Shown here: positions 3,192 through 15,016 of the stretch, in pieces
How the letters are laid out: each line of letters starts with the position of its first letter
How positions within the stretch are numbered: position 1 is the stretch's first letter
Notes under the pieces: model-generated
The model's input: the letters and a program-made list of their open reading frames with translations, nothing else
Database searches by the model: none
Told to the model about the DNA's origin: nothing
Program-made: the position numbers and the translations under genes
Origin: Phycisphaerales bacterium
Lineage (GTDB): Bacteria > Planctomycetota > Phycisphaerae > Tepidisphaerales > Tepidisphaeraceae
Assembly: GCA_020853095.1 (NCBI GenBank)
Contig: JADYZN010000024.1
Location: 62,001 to 126,000 of the forward strand
Direction of reading: 5' to 3'
DNA: 64,000 nt

Positions 3192-3282
3192 AGTGAAGCA
3201 TTAATTTCGTCTAAATCGCCTTCGTCGCGTGACAAGGCATTTGAAGTTCAGTGGAGTTGTCTCTTACATAGGGAGAAATCAC

Positions 3283-4131
3283 ATGTCCGCGTTTCGTACC
3301 GCAACGTTTCTGGGCCTTGCCGGAATTACCCTGGCCGTCGGCAGCATGGCCGCCTCGGCGGCGCCGACCTACCTGCTCAATCAGGACTTTGATAATACAT
3401 CGACTTTTCCTCTAAACTTAATCATCACGTCGGCGGGCGTCGGCGACGCGAGTACATCCGTCGGTTTTTGGACCGCCAGCGATGACACCGCCACCTACGC
3501 TCCTGAAATCGTGACCGATCCAACCAATGCGGCGAATCATGTTGTTGAGGTGACCCGCCACGCTTTCGGGCAGACCAATTTATTTGGCGCCAGCAACAAC
3601 ACGATCACCAGTGGCGTGTTTACTTATCAGTATTCGATCTATTTTCCGACGGATGCTGGCGGAGCGAATACCATTGTGACCAACATCAATAACACGTCCG
3701 CGGTGACCGGTGGTTCGCCCCATGCCGTCGGACAGCAATTTCGAGGCGCAACCGACAGCGACGTGGTCGTCTCGTCGACACCAGATGAATACACCAACGG
3801 TGGTTCCAGGACGTGGGGCTACAGCTTAAACACGAGCATCCCCATTGCGACATGGAATACCATTCGCGCCGTGGTGGACATTGACGCGGGAACATGGAGC
3901 ATGTACCTGACCAGCGGGGCCAATCCTGAGACCACTGTTTTCACGGACCGCGCATTCAGAGCCGGTGATCTCAGTAATGTCAGTGCCATCGGATTTTATC
4001 CGCAGTTGCCCAATGACGACCATGTGGTCTATCTGGACAACATCAGCCTGGCGAGCGTGCCGGAGCCGGCCAGCCTCGGTTTGCTGGGCTTGGGCGGCCT
4101 GGCCATGCTGGTCCGTCGCCGTCGGCGATAG
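3283..4131 (+). CDS. PEP-CTERM sorting domain protein, secreted
   Basis: 282 aa. The ATG at 3283 is chosen because GGGAGA lies 5 bases upstream and the product then begins with a clean signal peptide ending near ASAAP; an upstream frame extension has no such signal. The middle (about residues 25-255) is a beta-rich domain resembling secreted polysaccharide lyase or lectin-like jelly rolls, without catalytic residues I can name. The C terminus has VPEPASLGLLGLGG followed by a hydrophobic stretch and RRRRR, the exosortase recognition motif PEP-CTERM. The protein should be exported and processed by an exosortase that is not in this window. A strong hairpin terminator follows. Confidence 0.85.
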   Translation: MSAFRTATFLGLAGITLAVGSMAASAAPTYLLNQDFDNTSTFPLNLIITSAGVGDASTSVGFWTASDDTATYAPEIVTDPTNAANHVVEVTRHAFGQTNLFGASNNTITSGVFTYQYSIYFPTDAGGANTIVTNINNTSAVTGGSPHAVGQQFRGATDSDVVVSSTPDEYTNGGSRTWGYSLNTSIPIATWNTIRAVVDIDAGTWSMYLTSGANPETTVFTDRAFRAGDLSNVSAIGFYPQLPNDDHVVYLDNISLASVPEPASLGLLGLGGLAMLVRRRRR

Positions 4132-4220: not shown

Positions 4221-4910
4221 ATGTCCGTCAGACGTGGTTTTACATTGGTTGAACTGCTGGTCGTCATCGGAATCATAGCGCTTCTGATCAGCATCCTCCT
4301 GCCTTCGTTGAACAAGGCGCGTCGATCGGCGAGCACCGTACAATGCCTGAGCAACCTGCGACAGGTTGGGCTGTCGATGCAGATGTATCTCGATACCAGC
4401 AAGGGACTTTTTCCGAGATACGACTCATTATTACCCAATGGGAAATGGTATCAAAGGCTGCTTGAAACCAAGACCATGGCAACGGACAAAATCCTGTTTT
4501 GTCCCGAGCGTGAGCCAATTCCCGTCATCGCGCCGGACACCACTGAAGAAGCCAGCGCACTGACCAACGGGTACATCAGTTACGGCATTAATCTGATGCT
4601 CACCTATCCCTATCCTCCTTACACGGACATGGCGAAATTGACCCAGATTCGAAAACCGGCGGAGACCATCATGCTGGTTGACAGTTGTTACAGTCCAAGT
4701 ACGCCCACCGGCATTTTCGTCGTTTATCCCTATAACCGTTCACTCGGATACACCGCGTGGATGCGGCATCCCAACAACGGATGCAACGTGCTCTGGGCTG
4801 ATGGGCATGTCACCACCGTTCGTGCCAGCCAGCCGGATGTGGCATGGCTTTACGCAATGTCCGCCCTGACGGACGAAACATCCCCGGCGAATTACTGGGA
4901 CCGGGACTAA
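4221..4910 (+). CDS. Type IV pilin-like pseudopilin (prepilin N-terminal methylation domain)
   Basis: 229 aa. The N terminus is a class III prepilin signal: RRG followed by [18 protein letters not shown], with the invariant glutamate at position +5 of the mature protein. The C-terminal part ends with [14 protein letters not shown]; the (W/F)ADGHV motif is typical of the very numerous planctomycete pseudopilin-like proteins related to DUF1559. A good Shine-Dalgarno (AAGGAG, 4209-4214) precedes the ATG. It should be cleaved by a prepilin peptidase and held in the inner membrane or assembled in a type II secretion-like pseudopilus. The exact role of such proteins is not established. It sits between two secreted proteins, fitting an export-related locus. 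Confidence 0.88.
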
Positions 4911-4978: not shown

Positions 4979-7723
4979 ATGCAATTCCTGAAATATGCAA
5001 TGTCGGCTCTGCTGACTTTGGTTCTGGTGGCGGCATGGGCCAAAGCAGAGACGCCAAAACTCCATGGCGGACAAGCCGACATTTACATCAGCACGGGGGA
5101 CAACCTCTTCCTCGGTGATTCCCTGTCATTCGACACACCCGAGGCGGTGGATGCGCTGTTCGACTTGCTGAAGGAAACCGGCGTCAGGCGCGTGTACTGG
5201 CGTGGACTGGAACAGGTGTTGATGAACCGCAATCCCCTGCGCGAGCAGAATCTGCGGTACGCCTCGTGGGCGAATTGGACGCGGGACTTGTACAGGCGTT
5301 TTGATCCGGACAAGGCGGCCATCGCGGCGGCACACAAGCGGGGGATGGAAATCTGGGCCGTTGGGAAATTAAACGAATTCGGCGGCCAGGCGGATGCGGT
5401 TCCCACCAATGCATGGCCTTTCTTTGAAAGCAGCCCGCTGGTCGACAAATGGCCGGTCCTGGATCGCCATGGCGTTTTGCACCAGGGTGGGACGGTCAGT
5501 TTTGCCACCCCTGAATCGCGCCAAGACGTGATGGACATGGTGATGAGCGTGATGGATGAATACCCTTACGACGGGGTCGCGTTTCTCAGCTATGCGGAAA
5601 ATCACAGCCAGCGGTTTCAGGATGAATTTGGATTCAACCCGCCCATCGCCGAGGAGTTCAAGAAGCGATTTGGCATTGATCCGCGTTTTGAGGATTTCAC
5701 CCGGACCGCATCGCGGGAAGATTGGGTGCGGCTGCGGGGAGAACATCTCAGTGAATACCTTCGCGGGTTAAAAGCGCGTCTGGCAAAAAATCAACAAAAT
5801 CTGGGACTGTTTGTTAATCCATGGGATCCCCACGAGATGATGGCATGGAACGTTCCGGAAATAATTCAAACCGGCGGACCGATACACATCGATCTTGAAG
5901 GGCTGCTGGCCGATGGCACGTTGAATCAATTGGTCCTGTTCGCCGGATACGGCGCTTCCGATGAGGTTGTGGCGAAAACAGCGCAAAATTTATTATGGAT
6001 GACGCGCCAGACCAAGGCGGAAGTGTCCATCGACACGTCGCTCATGACCGTGCCGCAATGGGAGCCGCTGCGAAAGGCGGGGGCGGGACTGGTTTACGAT
6101 ATCCGCATCGCGGCGTCTTATTTTAATCGAGCCGGATTTCCCGATGCATCGCTTTCGGACCTGAAAAGCGATCAGGCGTTTGACCGCATGCGGGCGCTGC
6201 AGCAGATTGCGTATCATCAACTGAAGGAACGGGCGACGATCCAGGACATCGCCCCCCTGGCGAACGATCCCAACCCCATTGTTCGCAGCCTGGCGATATT
6301 GGCGTTGGACCGAACCGGCGATCCGGCCGCGTTTGCCATCATTGAAAAGGCTCTGAATGATCCGGAGTTGGTTGTGCGATGTTACGCCATCAAAGCGATG
6401 CGCAACAGCCCCGACCCCCAGGACCGGATCGTAGACAAGCTGATGGCATCCCTGGCTGAAATGCCGTTGCATCCCGTGGCCGAGGAGACGCTGGATGTGC
6501 TGATCGGGATGCGGCCTCGCCCGGCCACGCAGTTGTCAAAACTGATGCGAACGGATTCCCGGCCGCGCGTCTCCGAGATTGCGGCCCGCGCGTTGGAGAG
6601 CATGGCGCAAGACGACCTGCTGGAGACCTACTTGGCGGGATTGAAGGATACCCATGAATACGTGCGATACGCCTGCACCAAAGGCCTGGGGCATCTTCAT
6701 GGCAATCCCAAGGCGGTGGAGGCACTTCTGACCCAGTTGGTCAAGCCGGACGATGTGGTGGTGAACAACCGGGCAGCGCTTGCCCTGGCTGAGATCATTG
6801 ATGAAAACCGGCCGGAGGTTGCTTCGCTGCGTCCCCGGGTATTGGAGACGCTGAAGGAGGTCTACGCGGCATACGGCGATGGTTGCAATCGACCTGATGC
6901 GGCGTGGGGATATCGGCCGACGGGAACGGCGCTGCTGGCGTTTGGAACCCAGGGCCAGGAGGCGCTTCGCCAGTTCATGCTTCAGCGCAAGGACAAACAG
7001 TTGGCCGAGCTGGCATGGAAAAGCCTGTGCATCCCGCACCGTCTCAGCGAGTTTGATTTTGTCACCGAGGCCCAGGACCGTGAGGCGTTTGCCCAGCGGC
7101 CGCCATCACTTCGCAAATACAAGGTCGTCCGCGTTCAGCAGAATTTCGAGTCCGCCAAGCCGGCCGACGCCCAGTTCGCCGGCGGGGCGGGTGATGACTG
7201 GTCAGGCATGACCCAGGAGGGATCGTATCTGGATGCACAATCGCCCCATGAGGGCAAACAATCAATGAAACTGGTGCGCGGCCAACCGGCCGGCAACCTT
7301 GTGGGTGTCCGTCTGTCCAACGCGATCCGCGACGGCGCGAACGTGCAATTCAGCTTGTGGCTCCGCCGTGACAGCGATCAAAGCGCCTTTGGCGCCAACG
7401 CCCTTGGTGCAAGCGGCCAGGGAATTGGATTTTTCATCAATTCCAGCGGTTCGCTGCACCTGTGGGATGGTGAAAAATCCGGCTGGACGATCACCGATCT
7501 GACAGTTCCGGCCGGGAAATGGGTGCAATTGTCGCTGGTCAGCGATTACCCGTTACATACATACACCGCCACCCTGACCGATGCCGACGGCCGATCCCAA
7601 TCGGCCGAGGTTCAGGGCGTCTTGCCAAGCCACGCGGACATCACGCATCTTCGGTTCAGCCCGCAGGGCGATGAAGGGACTTCCAGCCACGTGGACGAGG
7701 TCACGCTGATCGCCCTGCCGTGA
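4979..7723 (+). CDS. Large secreted protein: glycosidase-like barrel, HEAT repeats, jelly-roll C terminus
   Basis: 914 aa from the ATG at 4979, which gives a signal peptide (hydrophobic run ending near AWAKAE). Residues ~30-410 resemble the glycosyl-hydrolase-like TIM barrels of the GHL10/DUF187 type: DTPEAVDALFDLLKETGVRRVYW near the start and a PYDGVAFLSYAE segment after a strand. Residues ~420-720 are helical repeats of HEAT/PBS type (NPIVRSLAILAL, DPELVVRCYAIKAM, HEYVRYACTKGL). Residues ~740-914 look like a LamG or carbohydrate-binding jelly roll (FSLWLRRDSDQ, GKWVQLSLVSD, VDEVTLIALP). The catalytic acids could not be assigned. Position behind a sugar-type regulator suggests a carbohydrate role, by inference. 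Confidence 0.7.
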   Translation: MQFLKYAMSALLTLVLVAAWAKAETPKLHGGQADIYISTGDNLFLGDSLSFDTPEAVDALFDLLKETGVRRVYWRGLEQVLMNRNPLREQNLRYASWANWTRDLYRRFDPDKAAIAAAHKRGMEIWAVGKLNEFGGQADAVPTNAWPFFESSPLVDKWPVLDRHGVLHQGGTVSFATPESRQDVMDMVMSVMDEYPYDGVAFLSYAENHSQRFQDEFGFNPPIAEEFKKRFGIDPRFEDFTRTASREDWVRLRGEHLSEYLRGLKARLAKNQQNLGLFVNPWDPHEMMAWNVPEIIQTGGPIHIDLEGLLADGTLNQLVLFAGYGASDEVVAKTAQNLLWMTRQTKAEVSIDTSLMTVPQWEPLRKAGAGLVYDIRIAASYFNRAGFPDASLSDLKSDQAFDRMRALQQIAYHQLKERATIQDIAPLANDPNPIVRSLAILALDRTGDPAAFAIIEKALNDPELVVRCYAIKAMRNSPDPQDRIVDKLMASLAEMPLHPVAEETLDVLIGMRPRPATQLSKLMRTDSRPRVSEIAARALESMAQDDLLETYLAGLKDTHEYVRYACTKGLGHLHGNPKAVEALLTQLVKPDDVVVNNRAALALAEIIDENRPEVASLRPRVLETLKEVYAAYGDGCNRPDAAWGYRPTGTALLAFGTQGQEALRQFMLQRKDKQLAELAWKSLCIPHRLSEFDFVTEAQDREAFAQRPPSLRKYKVVRVQQNFESAKPADAQFAGGAGDDWSGMTQEGSYLDAQSPHEGKQSMKLVRGQPAGNLVGVRLSNAIRDGANVQFSLWLRRDSDQSAFGANALGASGQGIGFFINSSGSLHLWDGEKSGWTITDLTVPAGKWVQLSLVSDYPLHTYTATLTDADGRSQSAEVQGVLPSHADITHLRFSPQGDEGTSSHVDEVTLIALP

Positions 7724-7939
7724 TGGCCGCCGATTGCTTTCCCGTCCCCCTGAAATGCCCCCAATGCATGGGAACCACCTCAGTTTTCCACACTCCGGCA
7801 CCAGAGGCGGTGGATAAGCTGAAGCGCGCGCCGGCGTGATTAAAAAAGCCGCCGGAGATGCGATAAATTATAAGCCGATACAGCGTAAGCCATTAGGGCG
7901 AGTTTAAGGTTTACTATCCAACAAATAGTGAAGTTTGGA
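7724..7939. other. Intergenic stretch without a recognisable gene
   Basis: First part of the 414-base gap between the large secreted protein and dcd. It holds an imperfect GC-rich hairpin near 7830-7855 (CCGGCG pairing with CGCCGG around an A-rich loop) that may end the upstream transcript, although no T run follows it. No coding frame with a ribosome binding site, tRNA or known RNA motif is visible. Confidence 0.5.
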
Positions 7940-7967
7940 TTGACCTACACAAGATATAGTGTATAGT
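7940..7967 (+). promoter_or_regulatory. Promoter ahead of the dcd leader
   Basis: TTGACC (7940-7945) and TATAGT (7962-7967) are separated by 16 bases, each one mismatch from the sigma-70 consensus. Transcription would begin near 7974, exactly where a structured leader starts. Confidence 0.6.
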
Positions 7968-7973
7968 GGCTTT

Positions 7974-8049
7974 TGTTGTAATGTGAGTTGTTGAGGAGAG
8001 CAGTTGAGCGGGGGAATGCAAGTTGCGCGGCGGAGCCGCCATTACAACA
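7974..8049 (+). ncRNA. Structured 5' leader or small RNA, family unknown
   Basis: A 10-bp perfect stem closes the element: TGTTGTAATG (7974-7983) pairs with CATTACAACA (8040-8049). Inside it is a tight hairpin GGCGG-AG-CCGCC near its 3' side. A further hairpin TCGCT-GGA-AGCGA follows just outside (about 8054-8066). The presumed transcription start falls at the 5' arm of the closing stem. The layout, a closing stem with inner hairpins ahead of a metabolic gene, resembles a riboswitch or a small RNA, but it matches no class whose consensus I can recall. Length and loops do not fit a tRNA. Confidence 0.45.
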
Positions 8050-8137
8050 CATGTCGCTGGAAGCGATGGTTTGACAGGCAATTAGAGCGGCCTTGGCGGG
8101 GAAGGTGCGCTATGATTTGGTTTGATCGGCGGTGGTT

Positions 8138-8698
8138 ATGGCGATTCTGTGCGACACTCAAATTCAAGAACTGATCGGGATCGAGCCGTTTGAGCAAAAC
8201 ATCAAACGCCAGGGGAAAATCAGCTATGGCGTCAGCAGTTACGGCTACGACCTGCGGGTGGGGAGCGTTTTTAAGATTTTCACCAACGTCAACAGTGAAA
8301 TCGTAGACCCCAAGCGGTTTTCGGAACGTTCATTTGTCACGGTGGATACGGATCAGTCCGGCTCGGATCATGTGCTGATTCCGCCCAACAGTTTCGCCTT
8401 GTGCGAAACGGTGGAGACCGTTGCGATGCCGCGCGGTTGCCTGGCGATCTGCGTCGGCAAAAGCACCTACGCCCGCTGTGGGATCATCGTGAACGTCACG
8501 CCCATCGAACCGGAATGGCGTGGCAAGATCACGCTGGAAATATCCAACACAACTCCTTTGCCGGCCAAGATTTACGCCAATGAGGGGATCGCGCAGCTCA
8601 TCTTCCTCAAAGGGGATCGGGTTTGCGCCATCAGCTATGCGGACAAAAAAGGCAAATATCAGGACCAGGGTGGATTGACGTTGCCCAAGGTGGACTAG
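8138..8698 (+). CDS. dcd: dCTP deaminase
   Basis: 186 aa. It deaminates dCTP to dUTP for dTTP synthesis in the cytoplasm, as a trimer. Family motifs are all present: [10 protein letters not shown] near the N terminus, [10 protein letters not shown], then [17 protein letters not shown], which holds the catalytic glutamate and the trimer-forming arginine, and [13 protein letters not shown]. The ATG at 8138 is preferred over the GTG two codons upstream because MAILCDTQI matches the usual start. The gene is preceded by a promoter and a 160-base leader with strong secondary structure. The next but one gene encodes ribonucleotide reductase, so this is a dNTP-supply neighbourhood. Confidence 0.95.
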
Positions 8699-8724
8699 AC
8701 CAGCTCGCTTTTCGGAGAATCGCC

Positions 8725-9153
8725 ATGAATAAATTGCATCTCATCGCGGCGGGAACGATGGCGGCGTTGATGGTGGCGGCGGGGGGGTGTGCCGACCAGC
8801 AGCAGCGATTGGATGAACAACGCCAGCAGCGGATGTTGCCGCCGGGGGCGCAGGTGGTGGCCGAGGGGCAGCCTCCCTTGTCGTATCTGATCCCCGAAGA
8901 AGGGGCGCGGATACAGGTGTGGGATTTGACCACCAGTTCGCTGGTTCACACGGCGAACCTGCCGGCCAGTTCGCAGGGTTCGGTGCTGGTGCTGGACGCC
9001 AAAAGTCAGAAACTGCTGATTCGTTCCATGAACAACAACGACCAGGCCGTTTTGCTGGATGGCCTGTCGCCGACGGATCAGTATCGAATCACTTTGTTGC
9101 CTGAGGGGAATACATACGATGCCGGCCCGGCCACCGCGCCGATTGGCCCGTAG
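8725..9153 (+). CDS. Small predicted lipoprotein, function unknown
   Basis: 142 aa. A signal sequence with a lipobox-like MVAAGGC predicts cleavage and lipid attachment at Cys22. The mature part begins with a short Gln/Arg-rich segment (ADQQQRLDEQRQQR) and then a beta-rich region of about 90 residues with no motif I recognise. The start has an acceptable Shine-Dalgarno (CGGAGAA). It lies 26 bases after dcd in the same direction and may be co-transcribed, though a link in function is not evident. The C terminus is rich in Pro, Ala and Gly. It is annotated as hypothetical. Confidence 0.7.
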   Translation: MNKLHLIAAGTMAALMVAAGGCADQQQRLDEQRQQRMLPPGAQVVAEGQPPLSYLIPEEGARIQVWDLTTSSLVHTANLPASSQGSVLVLDAKSQKLLIRSMNNNDQAVLLDGLSPTDQYRITLLPEGNTYDAGPATAPIGP

Positions 9154-9271
9154 AGATGAATTAGAACCGCCTTCCGTAACGGCGTGTCGCCTTTTGGTGA
9201 TGCGCTGGATCATGGATGGCGCATGGGATCAAACAGGAACGTCAGTTTAAGCCACGGGAAGGTTGAAAACG

Positions 9272-12200
9272 ATGAAGATCACGCGCCGATTTACAAAGCA
9301 GGGACAGGATCCGTTCGAGACGGTCGAGTATGAAAATCGCACCAGCCGGATCACCAATCCGGATGGCAGCGTCGTGTTCGAGATGACCGACGCCCAGATT
9401 CCAAAATCCTGGTCGCAGTTGGCGACCGACATCATGGTCAGCAAGTATTTCCGCAAGGCGGGCGTGCCGCAGGTGGACCAGAGCGGCCAGGTGATGCGGG
9501 ATGCCGCCGGCAACGTCGTGACCGGCCCGGAAAAAAGCGCCAAACAGGTGATCAACCGCCTGGCGGGGTGCTGGCGCTATTGGGGCGAAAAGCACGGCTA
9601 TTTCGACACCGCCGAGGATGCTCAGGCGTTTTACGATGAGCTGTCGTACATGCTGCTGCACCAGATGTGCGCCCCCAACAGCCCGCAATGGTTCAACACC
9701 GGCCTGAATTTCGCCTACGGCATCACCGGCCCCAGCCAGGGCCACTTTTACTGCGACCCGCGCACCGGCGAATTGATGAAGTCCAAGGATGCCTATTCGC
9801 ACCCGCAGCCCCATGCGTGCCAGCCGTACCATGCACCGGTCTCCACACCGCAGGGACCGATCGCGATCGGGAAGATTGTTGAAGAAAAACTGATCGGTCT
9901 GGAAGTATTTGATGGAAGCAAGAACGGCACGGGGACGACGCGCGTCAAAGCAGTCAAATCGAACGGTCAGAAACAGGTTTTGCGGATTGTCTTGAAAAAC
10001 GGCGCCGCCGTTGAAGCGACCGCCGACCATCTGGTCTGGGCGATGGATGAACGCCGAACCGCCGGTGAATGGCGTCGGGTCGATCAACTTCAACCGGGTA
10101 TGAGGTTGAGCCTGTCAACCCGTACGACGGTTTCCAAGACATCATCGACGCAACTGGCCCATGAAGCCGCATTGGTTGGATGGCTGCAAGGCGATGGATT
10201 CGTCGGGCAATACACCGAAGGCACCAACCGCAGCTTGACGTTGGAATTCATGACGGTCAATGAGGAGGAGCATCAACACGTCCTGAAGCATATTCATGCG
10301 GTCTTTGAGGGAGTTCATTACAAGGTACGCAGCGTTCCCGCCCAGGACAGCCGGCTGGATGTGCGGCGCATTCGCCTGTATGGCGAACAATTGCGGCCTT
10401 TTGTTGAAAAGTACGAATTGTTGCGGGATGGGGAGGAACTGACCGTTCCCAATGCCATTCGTTCGGCGGGGCATGAGGCACAATGTGAATATCTCAAGTC
10501 GTTGTTTCAGGCCGATGGCACGGTGAGGCTGCGGCATCGAGCATCGTGCACATCCGATGTGGTGTTGACGACCGTCAGCCCTTCCCTTGCTGAAGGAGTG
10601 CAGACCCTGTTGCTGAACCTGGGGATTTATGCGCGCATTCAACAGGGCGTGGAGAAACGGCAAAATCGCCGGGTGCCGTTGTTCGTGTCGATCGGTTATG
10701 CCGATGCGCGAAAGCGATTCGGACAGCAAATCGGATTTGTCAGCCAGGACAAAGCGGCCAAACTGCAAGTTTCCTGCTCTGATGAATTTGCCGGCAAAGA
10801 ACTTCCCGATCTGCGGGAAGAGGCGATCATCCGGATTGAACTGGCCGGCACACAGGCGGTGTACGATATTCAAACGGAATCCGAGCAATACCTTTCCAAT
10901 AATTTCATCATCCACAACTGCTTCATCCAATCCGTCTCCGATGACCTGGTGAACGCGGGGGGGATCATGGATTTGTGGACGCGGGAGGCGAGGCTGTTCA
11001 AGTATGGGTCGGGAACGGGGTCGAATTTTTCGCGGTTGCGCGGGGAAAATGAGCCGCTCAGCGGCGGGGGCAAGAGTTCGGGGTTGATGAGCTTTCTGAA
11101 GATCGGCGACCGGGCGGCCGGGGCGATCAAGAGCGGCGGAACCACCCGCCGGGCGGCCAAGATGGTCTGCCTGGACCTGGATCACCCGGACATCGAGCAG
11201 TTCGTCAACTGGAAGGTGCGAGAAGAGCTGAAAGTGGCGGCGATGGCCGAGGGGATCAAGCGCCTGGCCGATGACCAGCGGGAACTGGCCCGGAAACTGG
11301 GATTGAAGCTGGATTACGATTTCAACGGCGAGGCGTACGCGACCGTTTCGGGTCAGAATTCCAACAACTCGGTCCGCATTCCCAATCGTTTCTTCAAGGC
11401 GATCGAGGAGGATGGCGACTGGCATCTGACCCATCGCACCAACGGCAAGACCGCCCACAAGATCAAGGCGCGCGACCTGTGGGAACAGATCGCCTTCGCC
11501 GCCTGGCGATGCGCCGATCCGGGCGTGCAGTTCGACGACACGATCAACCAATGGCACACCTGCCCGAAGAGCGGGCGGATCAACGCTTCCAACCCCTGCG
11601 TCACCGGCGACACGCGCGTGTTGACCCCCGGCGGCATCTGGCGGCGGATCGACCAGATGATCCACCTGCCCAGCCGCGTGGTGACGAACCTGTCGAACCA
11701 TGAAATCCACGTCACCGAAGGAGCGTTCCCGACCGGAACCCGCGAGGTGTACGAACTGCGGACGATCGGGGGATACCGGCTGAAATTAACCGCCGATCAC
11801 AAGGTCTGGACCCGCCATCGCGGCTGGGTGGAAGCGCGGGAATTGACCAGTGCCGACGAAGTGCGGCTGCCCCACCGACCGGCGGCGGTGCAGGAGATCG
11901 GCGAGCCGCAGGACCGGCGGTTTTTCCATCTGCTGGGATTGTTCCTGTCGGCCGCCAACGGCGATTCGACCTCGCTGCACCTGGAGACCTGCCTACGCGA
12001 GCCGGCATTGGTCGAGGATTTCGCCCATTACGTCCACGAAAACTGGGGCGCCGGCAACTACGCCGATGATTACGTCAACCAGTTGATGGTTGACCATGGC
12101 GACATCGAGGAGTCCGAATCCGGCAACACGATGACCGTCACGCTGACCAACCGCCGGCTGATGAGCCGGTTGAAGGCCTACGCCCGCAACGACGCCGGCC

Positions 12201-15016
12201 AGCGCCGATTGAGCGACGATGCGTTCACGGCCGGACTGGCCGCCCAGCGGCATCTGCTGCGGGCGCTGTTCACGGCCGATGGCCACATCCACAACGGCAC
12301 GCTGGAGCTGGTATGCGACAGCGAGTTGCTTCTGCGGGATGTGCAGATGCTGCTGCTGGGATTCGGGGTGCAAAGCGGATTGATTTCATATGGCGATGGC
12401 GGAGCCAACGCCAGCGGAGAACTGCCTGGTCGCCGGGTGAACGCGCCCGGGCCGCGAAAGCATTGCGGCGACGCGGAAACACCGCGCCACGGCCTGCGTA
12501 TCGACTCAGGCAGTCTCCGCTCTTTTGCCAAACACGTCGGCTTGCTCGCGGGCCACAAGCACGAACAGCTCGCCGACGCCATCAGCTACGCGATTACCCG
12601 CCCGGACCATGCCGGCAACTGGGACCGCGTGGCGGAACTGACCCACCTGGGCCGCCAGCAGGTGTTTGATCTGACCGAGCCGGTGACGCAGTCGTTTGTC
12701 GCCAACGGGTTGACCGTCCACAACTGCTCGGAATACATGTTCCTGGACGACACCGCGTGCAATCTCGCATCGCTCAACGTCATGACGTTCTTCGACGCCG
12801 AGACGCGCACCTTCGACATCGAGGCGTTCAAACACGCCACGCGGCTGTGGACGGTGGTGCTGGAAGTGTCGGTGCTGATGGCCAGCTTCCCATCGGAGGA
12901 AATCGCCCGCCTCAGCTATCGTTATCGCACGCTGGGATTGGGATACGCCAACCTCGGCGCGATGCTGATGCAGGCCGGCATTCCCTACGACAGCGACAAA
13001 GGTCGGGCGATTTGCGCCGCCATCACCGCGATTTTGACGGGCCAGACGTACGCCACCAGCGCCGAGATGGCCTGTGAACTGGGCGCGTTCCCCGGTTATG
13101 AGCCCAACAAGTCCGACATGCTGCGGGTGATGCGCAACCATCGCCGGGCGGCCTATGATGTGGCCCACAACGCCGACGCCCGCAAGAGCCACGGCGATTA
13201 CGAATCGCTGGAGATTCGTCCGGTCGGCATCGACCCGGCGCAATTCGCCACCGGCGAGGCGCTGGCCAGCCCGCAGATGCTGCGGTCGGCGCAGGAATGC
13301 TGGGACCGGGCGTTGGCGCTGGGCGAACGGCACGGGTATCGCAACGCCCAGACCACCGTCATCGCCCCCACCGGAACCATCGGCCTGTTGATGGATTGCG
13401 ACACCACCGGCGTCGAGCCGGATTTCGCACTGGTCAAGTTCAAGAAACTGGCCGGCGGCGGCTATTTCAAAATCGCCAACCAGTCCCTGCGGCCGGCACT
13501 GGTGAACCTGGCCTATTCCAGCCACGAGATCCACGACATCCTCAAATACGTCATGGGCACGCTGTCGTTGCACGATGCCCCGCACATCAACTGGGACAGC
13601 CTCAAGCGCGTCGGTTTTTCGGAAGAAGAACTGGCCAAAATCGAACAGTCCCTGCCGGGCGTGTTTGAGATCGGCTTCGCCTTCAGCCCATGGTCGATCG
13701 GAGAGCAAACGCTCCAGCGGCTGGGGATCGATTCGGCCGAGTGGCAGTCTCCATCGTTCAATTTGCTCAAACGCCTGGGATTCAACTCCCGCCAGATCAA
13801 CGAGGCCAACGACGTCATCTGCGGCCGGGGGACCATCGAAGGCGCGCCCTATCTGAAAGCCGAGCACCTGCCGGTGTTCGACTGCGCCAACAAGTGCGGC
13901 CGGCACGGCCAGCGGTTCATCGCCGTCGAAGGGCACATTCGCATGATGGCCGCCGCCCAGCCGTTCATCAGCGGGGCGATCTCCAAGACCATCAACCTGC
14001 CCAACGAGGCCAACGTTGACCAGATCAAACAGTCCTACTGGCTCAGTTGGCAGCTTGGACTCAAGGCCAACGCGCTCTATCGCGATGGCAGCAAGCTCAG
14101 TCAGCCGTTGAACGTCAAAAGCGATCAGGAACTGGATTCGGCCGAGGAGGATGATGAGCAAAACGTCGAGGCCGCCAAGGCCGAACTGGCCACCGACGCG
14201 GCCAAGGCGGTGACGGCGGTGACGGCCGACAACATCGAGCCGGCCCACACCCGCGTCATCGAGCGGATCGTCGAGCGCATCGTCGAACGCCCGCTGCGCC
14301 GGCGGCTGCCCGACACGCGCAACGCCATCACCCACAAATTCGACGTGGCGGGCCACGAAGGATATCTGACCGCCGGCCTGTATGAGGACGGCCAGCCCGG
14401 CGAGGTCTTCATCACCATGGCCAAGGAAGGCTCCACCATCGGCGGCCTGATGGACGCCGTCGCCACGCTGGTCTCCGTCAGCCTGCAATATGGCGTGCCG
14501 GTCGAGTCGTTGGTGCGCAAATTCGAGCACGTGCGTTTTGAACCCAGCGGCATGACCCGAAACCCGGAAATCCCCATCGCCAAGAGCCTGGTCGATTACA
14601 TCTTCCGCTGGCTGGCGATGGAGTTCATCCCCGGCTATCGCGCCACCAACGCACCCAAACGCGACAAAGGCAAGGGTGCGGCAAACCCTAACCCGCCGGC
14701 CGCCGCCGAGCCGGCCCAAAAGAGCGGCAACGGCCACGGCCCGCGTATCGAGCCGGATTCGGCCAAGCCGTTTGATTACGGTTCGGGATTGCAGGAACAG
14801 GTGGAATCGGCACAGGGCCTGTCGCAAAACGACCCGGCCGGCCCGGCGCAATCATCCCCCAACCTGCGGCTGACGATCGTCGCCGATCCACTCAGCCAGC
14901 AGGGTTCGGAGATGCAGGCCGATGCCCCCGCCTGTGACGTCTGCGGCAGCATCACCGTCCGCAGCGGAACCTGCTACAAATGCCTCAATTGCGGAAATTC
15001 GATGGGATGCAGTTGA
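9272..15016 (+). CDS. nrdJ: Class II (B12-dependent) ribonucleotide reductase with two inteins
   Basis: 1914-aa precursor; removal of two inteins (367 and 376 aa) leaves about 1171 aa, normal for the long NrdJ type. It reduces ribonucleotides to deoxyribonucleotides with adenosylcobalamin as radical source. Extein landmarks are PHA/CFIQSVSDDL (first redox cysteine), LFKYGSGTGSNFS, NP/CSEYMF (Asn, radical Cys and Glu of the active site), CNLASLN (second redox cysteine) and a TSCPD-type region (about residues 1680-1790). The tail has CDVCGS...CYKCLNCGNSMGCS, a zinc ribbon plus the terminal cysteines that recycle the active site. A TTG three codons upstream is an alternative start, but GGAAGG fits the ATG. 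The stretch ERIVERIVERP near 14260 is a short internal repeat. Confidence 0.95.
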   Translation: MKITRRFTKQGQDPFETVEYENRTSRITNPDGSVVFEMTDAQIPKSWSQLATDIMVSKYFRKAGVPQVDQSGQVMRDAAGNVVTGPEKSAKQVINRLAGCWRYWGEKHGYFDTAEDAQAFYDELSYMLLHQMCAPNSPQWFNTGLNFAYGITGPSQGHFYCDPRTGELMKSKDAYSHPQPHACQPYHAPVSTPQGPIAIGKIVEEKLIGLEVFDGSKNGTGTTRVKAVKSNGQKQVLRIVLKNGAAVEATADHLVWAMDERRTAGEWRRVDQLQPGMRLSLSTRTTVSKTSSTQLAHEAALVGWLQGDGFVGQYTEGTNRSLTLEFMTVNEEEHQHVLKHIHAVFEGVHYKVRSVPAQDSRLDVRRIRLYGEQLRPFVEKYELLRDGEELTVPNAIRSAGHEAQCEYLKSLFQADGTVRLRHRASCTSDVVLTTVSPSLAEGVQTLLLNLGIYARIQQGVEKRQNRRVPLFVSIGYADARKRFGQQIGFVSQDKAAKLQVSCSDEFAGKELPDLREEAIIRIELAGTQAVYDIQTESEQYLSNNFIIHNCFIQSVSDDLVNAGGIMDLWTREARLFKYGSGTGSNFSRLRGENEPLSGGGKSSGLMSFLKIGDRAAGAIKSGGTTRRAAKMVCLDLDHPDIEQFVNWKVREELKVAAMAEGIKRLADDQRELARKLGLKLDYDFNGEAYATVSGQNSNNSVRIPNRFFKAIEEDGDWHLTHRTNGKTAHKIKARDLWEQIAFAAWRCADPGVQFDDTINQWHTCPKSGRINASNPCVTGDTRVLTPGGIWRRIDQMIHLPSRVVTNLSNHEIHVTEGAFPTGTREVYELRTIGGYRLKLTADHKVWTRHRGWVEARELTSADEVRLPHRPAAVQEIGEPQDRRFFHLLGLFLSAANGDSTSLHLETCLREPALVEDFAHYVHENWGAGNYADDYVNQLMVDHGDIEESESGNTMTVTLTNRRLMSRLKAYARNDAGQRRLSDDAFTAGLAAQRHLLRALFTADGHIHNGTLELVCDSELLLRDVQMLLLGFGVQSGLISYGDGGANASGELPGRRVNAPGPRKHCGDAETPRHGLRIDSGSLRSFAKHVGLLAGHKHEQLADAISYAITRPDHAGNWDRVAELTHLGRQQVFDLTEPVTQSFVANGLTVHNCSEYMFLDDTACNLASLNVMTFFDAETRTFDIEAFKHATRLWTVVLEVSVLMASFPSEEIARLSYRYRTLGLGYANLGAMLMQAGIPYDSDKGRAICAAITAILTGQTYATSAEMACELGAFPGYEPNKSDMLRVMRNHRRAAYDVAHNADARKSHGDYESLEIRPVGIDPAQFATGEALASPQMLRSAQECWDRALALGERHGYRNAQTTVIAPTGTIGLLMDCDTTGVEPDFALVKFKKLAGGGYFKIANQSLRPALVNLAYSSHEIHDILKYVMGTLSLHDAPHINWDSLKRVGFSEEELAKIEQSLPGVFEIGFAFSPWSIGEQTLQRLGIDSAEWQSPSFNLLKRLGFNSRQINEANDVICGRGTIEGAPYLKAEHLPVFDCANKCGRHGQRFIAVEGHIRMMAAAQPFISGAISKTINLPNEANVDQIKQSYWLSWQLGLKANALYRDGSKLSQPLNVKSDQELDSAEEDDEQNVEAAKAELATDAAKAVTAVTADNIEPAHTRVIERIVERIVERPLRRRLPDTRNAITHKFDVAGHEGYLTAGLYEDGQPGEVFITMAKEGSTIGGLMDAVATLVSVSLQYGVPVESLVRKFEHVRFEPSGMTRNPEIPIAKSLVDYIFRWLAMEFIPGYRATNAPKRDKGKGAANPNPPAAAEPAQKSGNGHGPRIEPDSAKPFDYGSGLQEQVESAQGLSQNDPAGPAQSSPNLRLTIVADPLSQQGSEMQADAPACDVCGSITVRSGTCYKCLNCGNSMGCS
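9818..10918 (+). other. Intein 1 of NrdJ (LAGLIDADG type)
   Basis: In-frame 367-residue insertion (precursor residues 183-549). It starts with Cys (CQPYHAPVSTPQG, block A), has the TADH block-B motif, and ends VYDIQTESEQYLSNNFIIHN (blocks F and G with the terminal His-Asn). The +1 extein residue is Cys of CFIQSVSDD. Two LAGLIDADG-like helices, VGWLQGDGF and LKSLFQADGT, mark a homing endonuclease domain. Removing it joins HPQPHA to CFIQS, the uninterrupted class II reductase sequence. All splicing residues are present, so it should be active. Its base composition is visibly less GC-rich than the flanking extein. Confidence 0.95.
11597..12724 (+). other. Intein 2 of NrdJ (degenerate LAGLIDADG type)
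   Basis: In-frame 376-residue insertion (precursor residues 776-1151). It begins CVTGDTRVLTPGG (block A), has TADHKVW (block B), and ends FDLTEPVTQSFVANGLTVHN (blocks F and G). The +1 residue is the cysteine of NPCSE, the radical cysteine of the reductase. The endonuclease helices are LLGLFLSAANGD and LLRALFTADGH; the first has drifted from consensus, so homing activity may be lost. Splicing residues look intact. Codon and base use match the GC-rich host gene, unlike intein 1. Confidence 0.95.

Follow-up and report, generated by a model that had tools for sequence, protein, structure and literature searches.

The dcd-nrdJ operon of this member of the Tepidisphaeraceae (genome G000) is best read as giving rise to an mRNA that is repressed by NrdR at its promoter and that carries a CsrA-type leader, to which CsrA would bind (rough probability 0.6). 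The operon lies within the window, which here means the whole stretch of 64,000 nucleotides that was analysed. An earlier, sequence-only reading had described a structured element ahead of dcd and likened it to a ligand-sensing leader; a structured, regulatory-looking leader does precede this dNTP-supply operon, and it is the ligand sensing that finds no support. That reading missed an NrdR operator over the promoter, which already takes care of dNTP sensing. NrdR senses dATP/ATP, so the dNTP logic would be explained at the level of DNA. In addition, what different genera share in the leader is a short hairpin that is capped by GGA and whose stem varies freely, and this suggests a CsrA-type RNA-binding protein.

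Table 1. Features of the dcd-nrdJ region, in positions of the window.
Feature	Positions	Strand	Basis and remarks
NrdR box 1 (predicted), ATCCAACAAATAGTGA	7916-7931	+	core 7919-7928; pairs with box 2 under the pair rule
Promoter, -35 TTGACC, -10 TATAGT	7940-7967	+	promoter match, sigma-70-like; 16 bp between hexamers
NrdR box 2 (predicted), ACACAAGATATAGTGT	7947-7962	+	15-bp spacer from box 1; 15/16 to presumed consensus
5'-terminal 10-bp stem closing the leader, arms TGTTGTAATG and CATTACAACA	7974-7983 / 8040-8049	+	perfect pairing; sequence, centroid fold, shuffles; 9/10 pairs in G001
Hairpin 1, GCGGC-GGA-GCCGC	8027-8039	+	GGA triloop 8032-8034; candidate CsrA site
Hairpin 2, TGTCGCT-GGA-AGCGATG	8052-8068	+	GGA triloop 8059-8061; candidate CsrA site; 3' of the 10-bp stem
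dcd, dCTP deaminase	8138-8698	+	TIGR02274, 162.4 bits (cut-off 92.8)
Small lipoprotein-like ORF in the dcd/nrdJ interval	8725-9153	+	outside G000 matched only in G001 (84%) among the loci compared
nrdJ, B12-dependent ribonucleotide reductase with intein regions	9263-15016	+	TIGR02504, 542 bits; TIGR01445 (intein_Nterm), two stretches

The genes downstream of the leader serve dNTP supply, as had been proposed: dcd (TIGR02274) comes first, after a leader of 164 nt, and nrdJ (TIGR02504) follows. Here, the order is common, as nrdJ lies just 3' of dcd on the same strand at 54 of 62 dcd loci, a set in which five places are counted twice. The nrdJ gene appears to carry two inteins, with breaks in the reductase matches at residues ~186-550 and ~780-1150. 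In three class-level relatives (G055, G047 and G029; loci L030, L031 and L033), an open, protein-like frame with a shared RRLSRRR...NKN lies upstream of dcd and is preceded by AGGAG and GTG; Dcd possibly has an N-terminal extension of ~45 residues in these genomes. Elsewhere in the window, positions 3229-4131 and then 4221-4910 encode what are presumably a protein with a PEP-CTERM-like tail and a prepilin-like secreted protein.

The promoter that had been placed ahead of the stem is there as a TTGACC/TATAGT match, from which transcription is predicted to start at ~7974, and in many relatives TTGAC/TTGNN and TAT-rich hexamers keep this position with respect to the boxes. A predicted tandem NrdR operator wraps this promoter and is conserved ahead of dcd-nrdJ across the Phycisphaerae. 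Its boxes overlap the -35 and -10 hexamers, with nrdJ further downstream, and box 2 reaches from the promoter spacer into the -10 by one base. One base separates box 2 from what is taken to be the NrdR consensus; a site of this type, with up to 3 mismatches allowed, occurs nowhere else in the window (0.10 expected), and the entire G000 genome has no other. PMC12051234 gives a pair rule for NrdR as a regular expression, which calls for two C.[AT].A[AT].[AT].G boxes at a spacing of 14-17 bp, and names 15 bp as the usual spacer. Such a pair is found in G000 at 7919 and 7950, with a 15-bp spacer (21 by the counting of the rule). The same rule picks out 28 of 57 dcd upstream regions, nearly all from planctomycetes and G000's own among them, against a mean of 0.52 and a maximum of 3 in 100 shuffles. 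A leave-one-out position weight matrix (PWM) refinds 49/49 box pairs at the same place and scores the G000 pair at 27.7, the highest score in 300 shuffles being 17.4. The claim for NrdR rests on these two tests, as an iterated PWM trains on its own hits. Control of the dcd-nrdJ operon by NrdR is, on this evidence, very highly probable.

The arrangement resembles the operators of S. coelicolor nrdRJ and E. coli nrdHIEF, which have two boxes about three helix turns apart with a 15-bp spacer and overlap the promoter (PMC9110341, PMC12051234). Unlike those operons, the one in G000 begins with dcd and has nrdJ behind it; dcd goes unmentioned in both papers. Literature searches found no paper joining "NrdR box" with "dCTP deaminase", no relevant titles on NrdR, dcd and a ribonucleotide reductase regulon, nothing, judged by listings, that apparently concerned dcd-nrdJ control by NrdR in planctomycetes, and no "nrdJ motif".

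An NrdR protein scoring above the curated cut-off is encoded in 23 of 26 family genomes, including that of the sister species G001. A full NrdR was not found in the G000 assembly, a metagenome-assembled genome (MAG) that is 96% complete, where just a short zinc ribbon was recovered; this may be a gap of the MAG. The zinc ribbon is a 61-aa NrdR-like protein, not a full NrdR, directly behind a phage-terminase-like ORF (L160 1951-2136, G000:C35). In G004, which belongs to the family but gave no dcd hit, the tandem NrdR boxes precede nrdJ itself (L036 / L189), and that nrdJ leader also carries a GGA-capped hairpin.

Both hairpins of the G000 leader cap their stem with exactly GGA, and so a ranking of all 64 triplets was tested. 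The motif had been spotted by eye before the test, in which, for each triplet, leaders were counted that have a hairpin centred on it, with a stem of at least 5 and a loop of 3 or 5. GGA-capped hairpins were found in 13 of the 20 leaders in the first family set (1.14 in shuffles, maximum 5). Four leaders were added later, of which those of G020 and G004 have the hairpin and those of G007 and G009 do not; the G004 leader was run to nrdJ. In the full family set this gives 15/24 against a mean of 1.36 and a maximum of 5 in 200 shuffles, with the hairpin missing from 9/24, and GGA is first among the 64 triplets at 8/8 settings. The other strand of the motif, TCC, caps no hairpin in 20 family leaders, and the stretch just upstream of the boxes has GGA-capped hairpins in 2/20 (1.07 in shuffles). 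Control regions gave 1/22 upstream of gyrB (0.84; all 22 loci) and a slightly raised 3/20 upstream of recA (0.57, maximum 3; 20 of 21 loci), and the window as a whole is unenriched, with 17 and 16 per strand against 17.75. Two GGA triloops within one leader, as in G000, arose in 6/3000 shuffles. The signal fades outside the family (3/29 against 1.20), and looser definitions weaken it: GGA anywhere in a loop of 3-9 bases occurs in 32/49 leaders (21.3 in shuffles, maximum 26), and with loops of 3-8 GAT ranks above GGA across all 49 leaders, GGA being first only in the family.

Across dcd leaders of the family, 49-174 bases separate the GGA-capped hairpin from the start codon. Stem sequences are unrelated among the leaders, and three to five standard pair types occur at each of pairs 2-5; this variety is a description only, since pairing was a criterion of selection, and it is the triplet ranking that serves as the test. 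The dcd upstream set omitted L070, L075, L076 and L078-L122, five loci were dropped as identical to genomes already in the set, the leader tests left out the 8/57 upstream regions without a box pair, and G002 and G003, which gave no dcd hit, stood outside the comparison. A fixed hairpin, CGTCAGGA-N-GACG, was tried as a regulon signal and set aside. Of the places chosen, 18/20 lie inside an ORF of at least 90 aa; overlap with at least one ORF on either strand was counted, which is weak evidence of coding. That pattern occurs in 26/26 family genomes and is commoner than its reversed control in most. In G022 (L165, L166 and L167), copies of CGTCAGGATGACG have a ggagta/ccgagta context in common and look like a short palindromic repeat of the dispersed kind.

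CsrA sites are typified by a GGA in the loop of a hairpin, according to PMC7652899, which also states that one CsrA dimer can bridge a pair of sites at a distance of 10-63 nt. In G000 the GGAs at 8032 and 8059 are 27 nt apart and fall in this range. A CsrA gene is present in 26/26 family genomes, and the G000 protein has L4 and R44 and matches solved CsrA/RsmE structures. The CsrB repeat is given in the same text as CAGGA(A/C/U)G, and this motif is found in 6/24 family leaders against 1.2, several relatives having CAGGA(A/U)G. The fit is incomplete at the level of the preferred site. CsrA sites from SELEX favour a six-base loop, ACA before the GGA and stems of at most 4 pairs (PMC7652899). The high-affinity consensus is RUACARGGAUGU in a hexaloop on a short stem. 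This consensus is not matched in G000, where the loops read CTGGAAG and CGGAG, there is no ACA and the stems are longer.

Among known CsrA/RsmA leader sites, the nearest likeness is to E. coli flhDC, where two CsrA sites near the 5' end protect the transcript from RNase E, as reported in PMC7652899. As at flhDC, the candidate sites of G000 present GGA in hairpin loops, are two in number at a bridgeable distance and lie near the 5' end, far from the start codon of dcd (offsets -79 and -106). Unlike the CsrA/RsmA sites described there, they are tri- or pentaloops without ACA on longer stems, and they would belong to dNTP-supply genes of a planctomycete. Among the papers listed in literature searches, none was about planctomycete Csr targets and none was apparently relevant to CsrA with dCTP deaminase or with a ribonucleotide reductase leader. 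Taken from sequence comparison, a family-wide CsrA-type GGA hairpin in the dcd leader is somewhat favoured. The fuller proposal, that in the Tepidisphaeraceae the dcd-nrdJ mRNA is under direct CsrA control, exerted through the conserved GGA-capped hairpins of its leader, and that dNTP supply is set by NrdR and Csr together, is put at even odds.

The GGA-capped hairpin might instead be read by a factor other than CsrA, such as a ribosome at a standby site or another RNA-binding protein. GGA resembles the core of a Shine-Dalgarno sequence, and several relatives (G014, G021) have AGGAGG or AGGAG in the loop. In addition, the three class-level relatives named above show, by eye, CACGTC-AGGAGxxx-GGCGTG, in which the AGGAG could serve the GTG start of the extended Dcd. 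In G000, however, the dcd reading frame stays open for just 4 codons upstream of the ATG, which rules out the hairpin as the ribosome site of Dcd itself, and the constant part of the loop is GGA rather than GGAG (TGGAA, TGGAT, CGGAT, AGGAT). A reader of this kind is considered improbable, though it is among the two best-placed alternatives to CsrA.

The other of these concerns the long stem. The perfect 10-bp closing stem around a GC hairpin (hairpin 1) is present just as the sequence-only reading had it, the second hairpin does follow directly, and the centroid fold contains all three. The leader from there to dcd is of about the length it gave (69 bases, 8069-8137, for ~70), although not unstructured, as minimum free energy (MFE) folds pair it. 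A perfect 10-bp inverted repeat appears in 1/400 dinucleotide shuffles of the G000 leader, and in 0/1000 when it is made to begin within the first 6 bases. The whole leader element occurs once in the G000 genome, and of 61 genomes searched, G000 among them, that of the sister species G001 is the only other one to have it (84%); G005 gave a match to the promoter and lacks the element. Between the two species, the promoter with its boxes is identical at 51/52 positions, the 5' arm of the stem at 9/10 and the 3' arm at 10/10, with the outermost pair broken, whereas the loop at 7984-8012 is identical at just 12/29. Identity is 26/27 in the block 8013-8039, 18/19 in hairpin 2 and 44/59 at 8069-8127. 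The sequence of hairpin 1 is kept in G001, yet the MFE fold of G001 pairs that stretch differently. That the stem was retained while its loop diverged suggests that it is of importance within the genus. Conservation of the stem in a relative was thus borne out and covariation was not: no compensatory changes were found between G000 and G001, there is no wider homologue, and two sequences lacking such a change give the long stem no support by covariation.

The stem could be a functional mRNA stabiliser that leaves decay enzymes no unpaired 5' end, with the GGA loops incidental. The leader of E. coli ompA is such a 5'-terminal stem, and the stem of G000 is likewise at the very 5' end. The position of the repeat at the inferred start and the retention of both arms in G001 agree with this. 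The start site, unlike that of ompA, is a predicted one, and the stem is common to two genomes only, with perfect repeats of just 3-8 bp beginning in the first 12 bases of the other leaders. A stabiliser without CsrA is therefore rated as unlikely, on a par with the non-CsrA reader.

Slightly less probable still is that the leader is an ordinary one, in which the stem and hairpins have no function. Its folding energy is inside the range of shuffles (z -0.57 for 7960-8145, -0.67 for 7974-8066 and -1.71 for 7974-8049), and the entire window has 12 inverted repeats of 10 bp against 10-17 in 5 shuffles, so that scanning 64 kb would turn up some such stems. Across leaders, the first 110 bases have a mean z of -0.79 (n=49) against -0.32 for 100 random windows at the same loci, a difference too weak to define an element, and a family-wide leader structure was rejected as such. 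Against an ordinary leader stand the strong over-representation of GGA-capped hairpins in the family and the identity of 54/56 between G000 and G001 over 8013-8068 (three segments summed).

A new riboswitch sensing a nucleotide, a dNTP or cobalamin has very little in its favour beyond a closed multi-branch shape and a position ahead of dcd and a B12-dependent nrdJ. As the sequence-only reading had noted, no known riboswitch class fits: no Rfam hit reaches the gathering score anywhere in the window, and 7850-8250 yields chance hits only (SNORD48 and isrG, E 5-8). The long stem is restricted to the genus and without covariation, its folding is about as good as that of shuffled sequence, the loop diverges in the sister species, a terminator scan of the + strand over 7500-9000 found none, and dNTP sensing is already covered by NrdR. 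Most improbable of all is regulation of dcd by a translated upstream ORF, an ATG-started frame from 8016 that by eye extends into dcd out of frame with it, and it was rejected as coding, since (also by eye) three G000/G001 changes in the conserved part are all amino-acid changing with 0 silent and the frame is afterwards broken by indels in the alignment.

An mRNA repressed by NrdR and carrying a CsrA-type leader would work as follows. When dATP is high, an NrdR tetramer loaded with dATP and ATP would occupy both boxes and block the promoter. Transcription from this promoter would pass through the leader and take in both dcd and nrdJ. The leader RNA would expose GGA in two hairpin loops, at a spacing that would let a CsrA dimer bridge them, and the conserved GGA hairpin would most likely be the CsrA binding site. 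As the hairpins lie close to the 5' end and a long way ahead of the start codon, CsrA would be likelier to change the stability of the mRNA or the folding of the leader, as at flhDC, than to block the ribosome site. The 10-bp stem would hold hairpin 1 in place and may in its own right protect the 5' end against decay.

Comparison of relatives resolves what had seemed an orphan riboswitch into a transcription-factor site and candidate protein-binding hairpins. The NrdR operator would bring dCTP deaminase under the same dATP-sensing repressor as ribonucleotide reductase. If the reading is true, it would link a global RNA-binding regulator to the supply of DNA precursors, add a post-transcriptional arm to ribonucleotide reductase control and provide a testable Csr target for planctomycetes. 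The dNTP supply of these bacteria would then be set by dATP/ATP at the promoter, through NrdR, and by the carbon or growth state at the RNA, through Csr.
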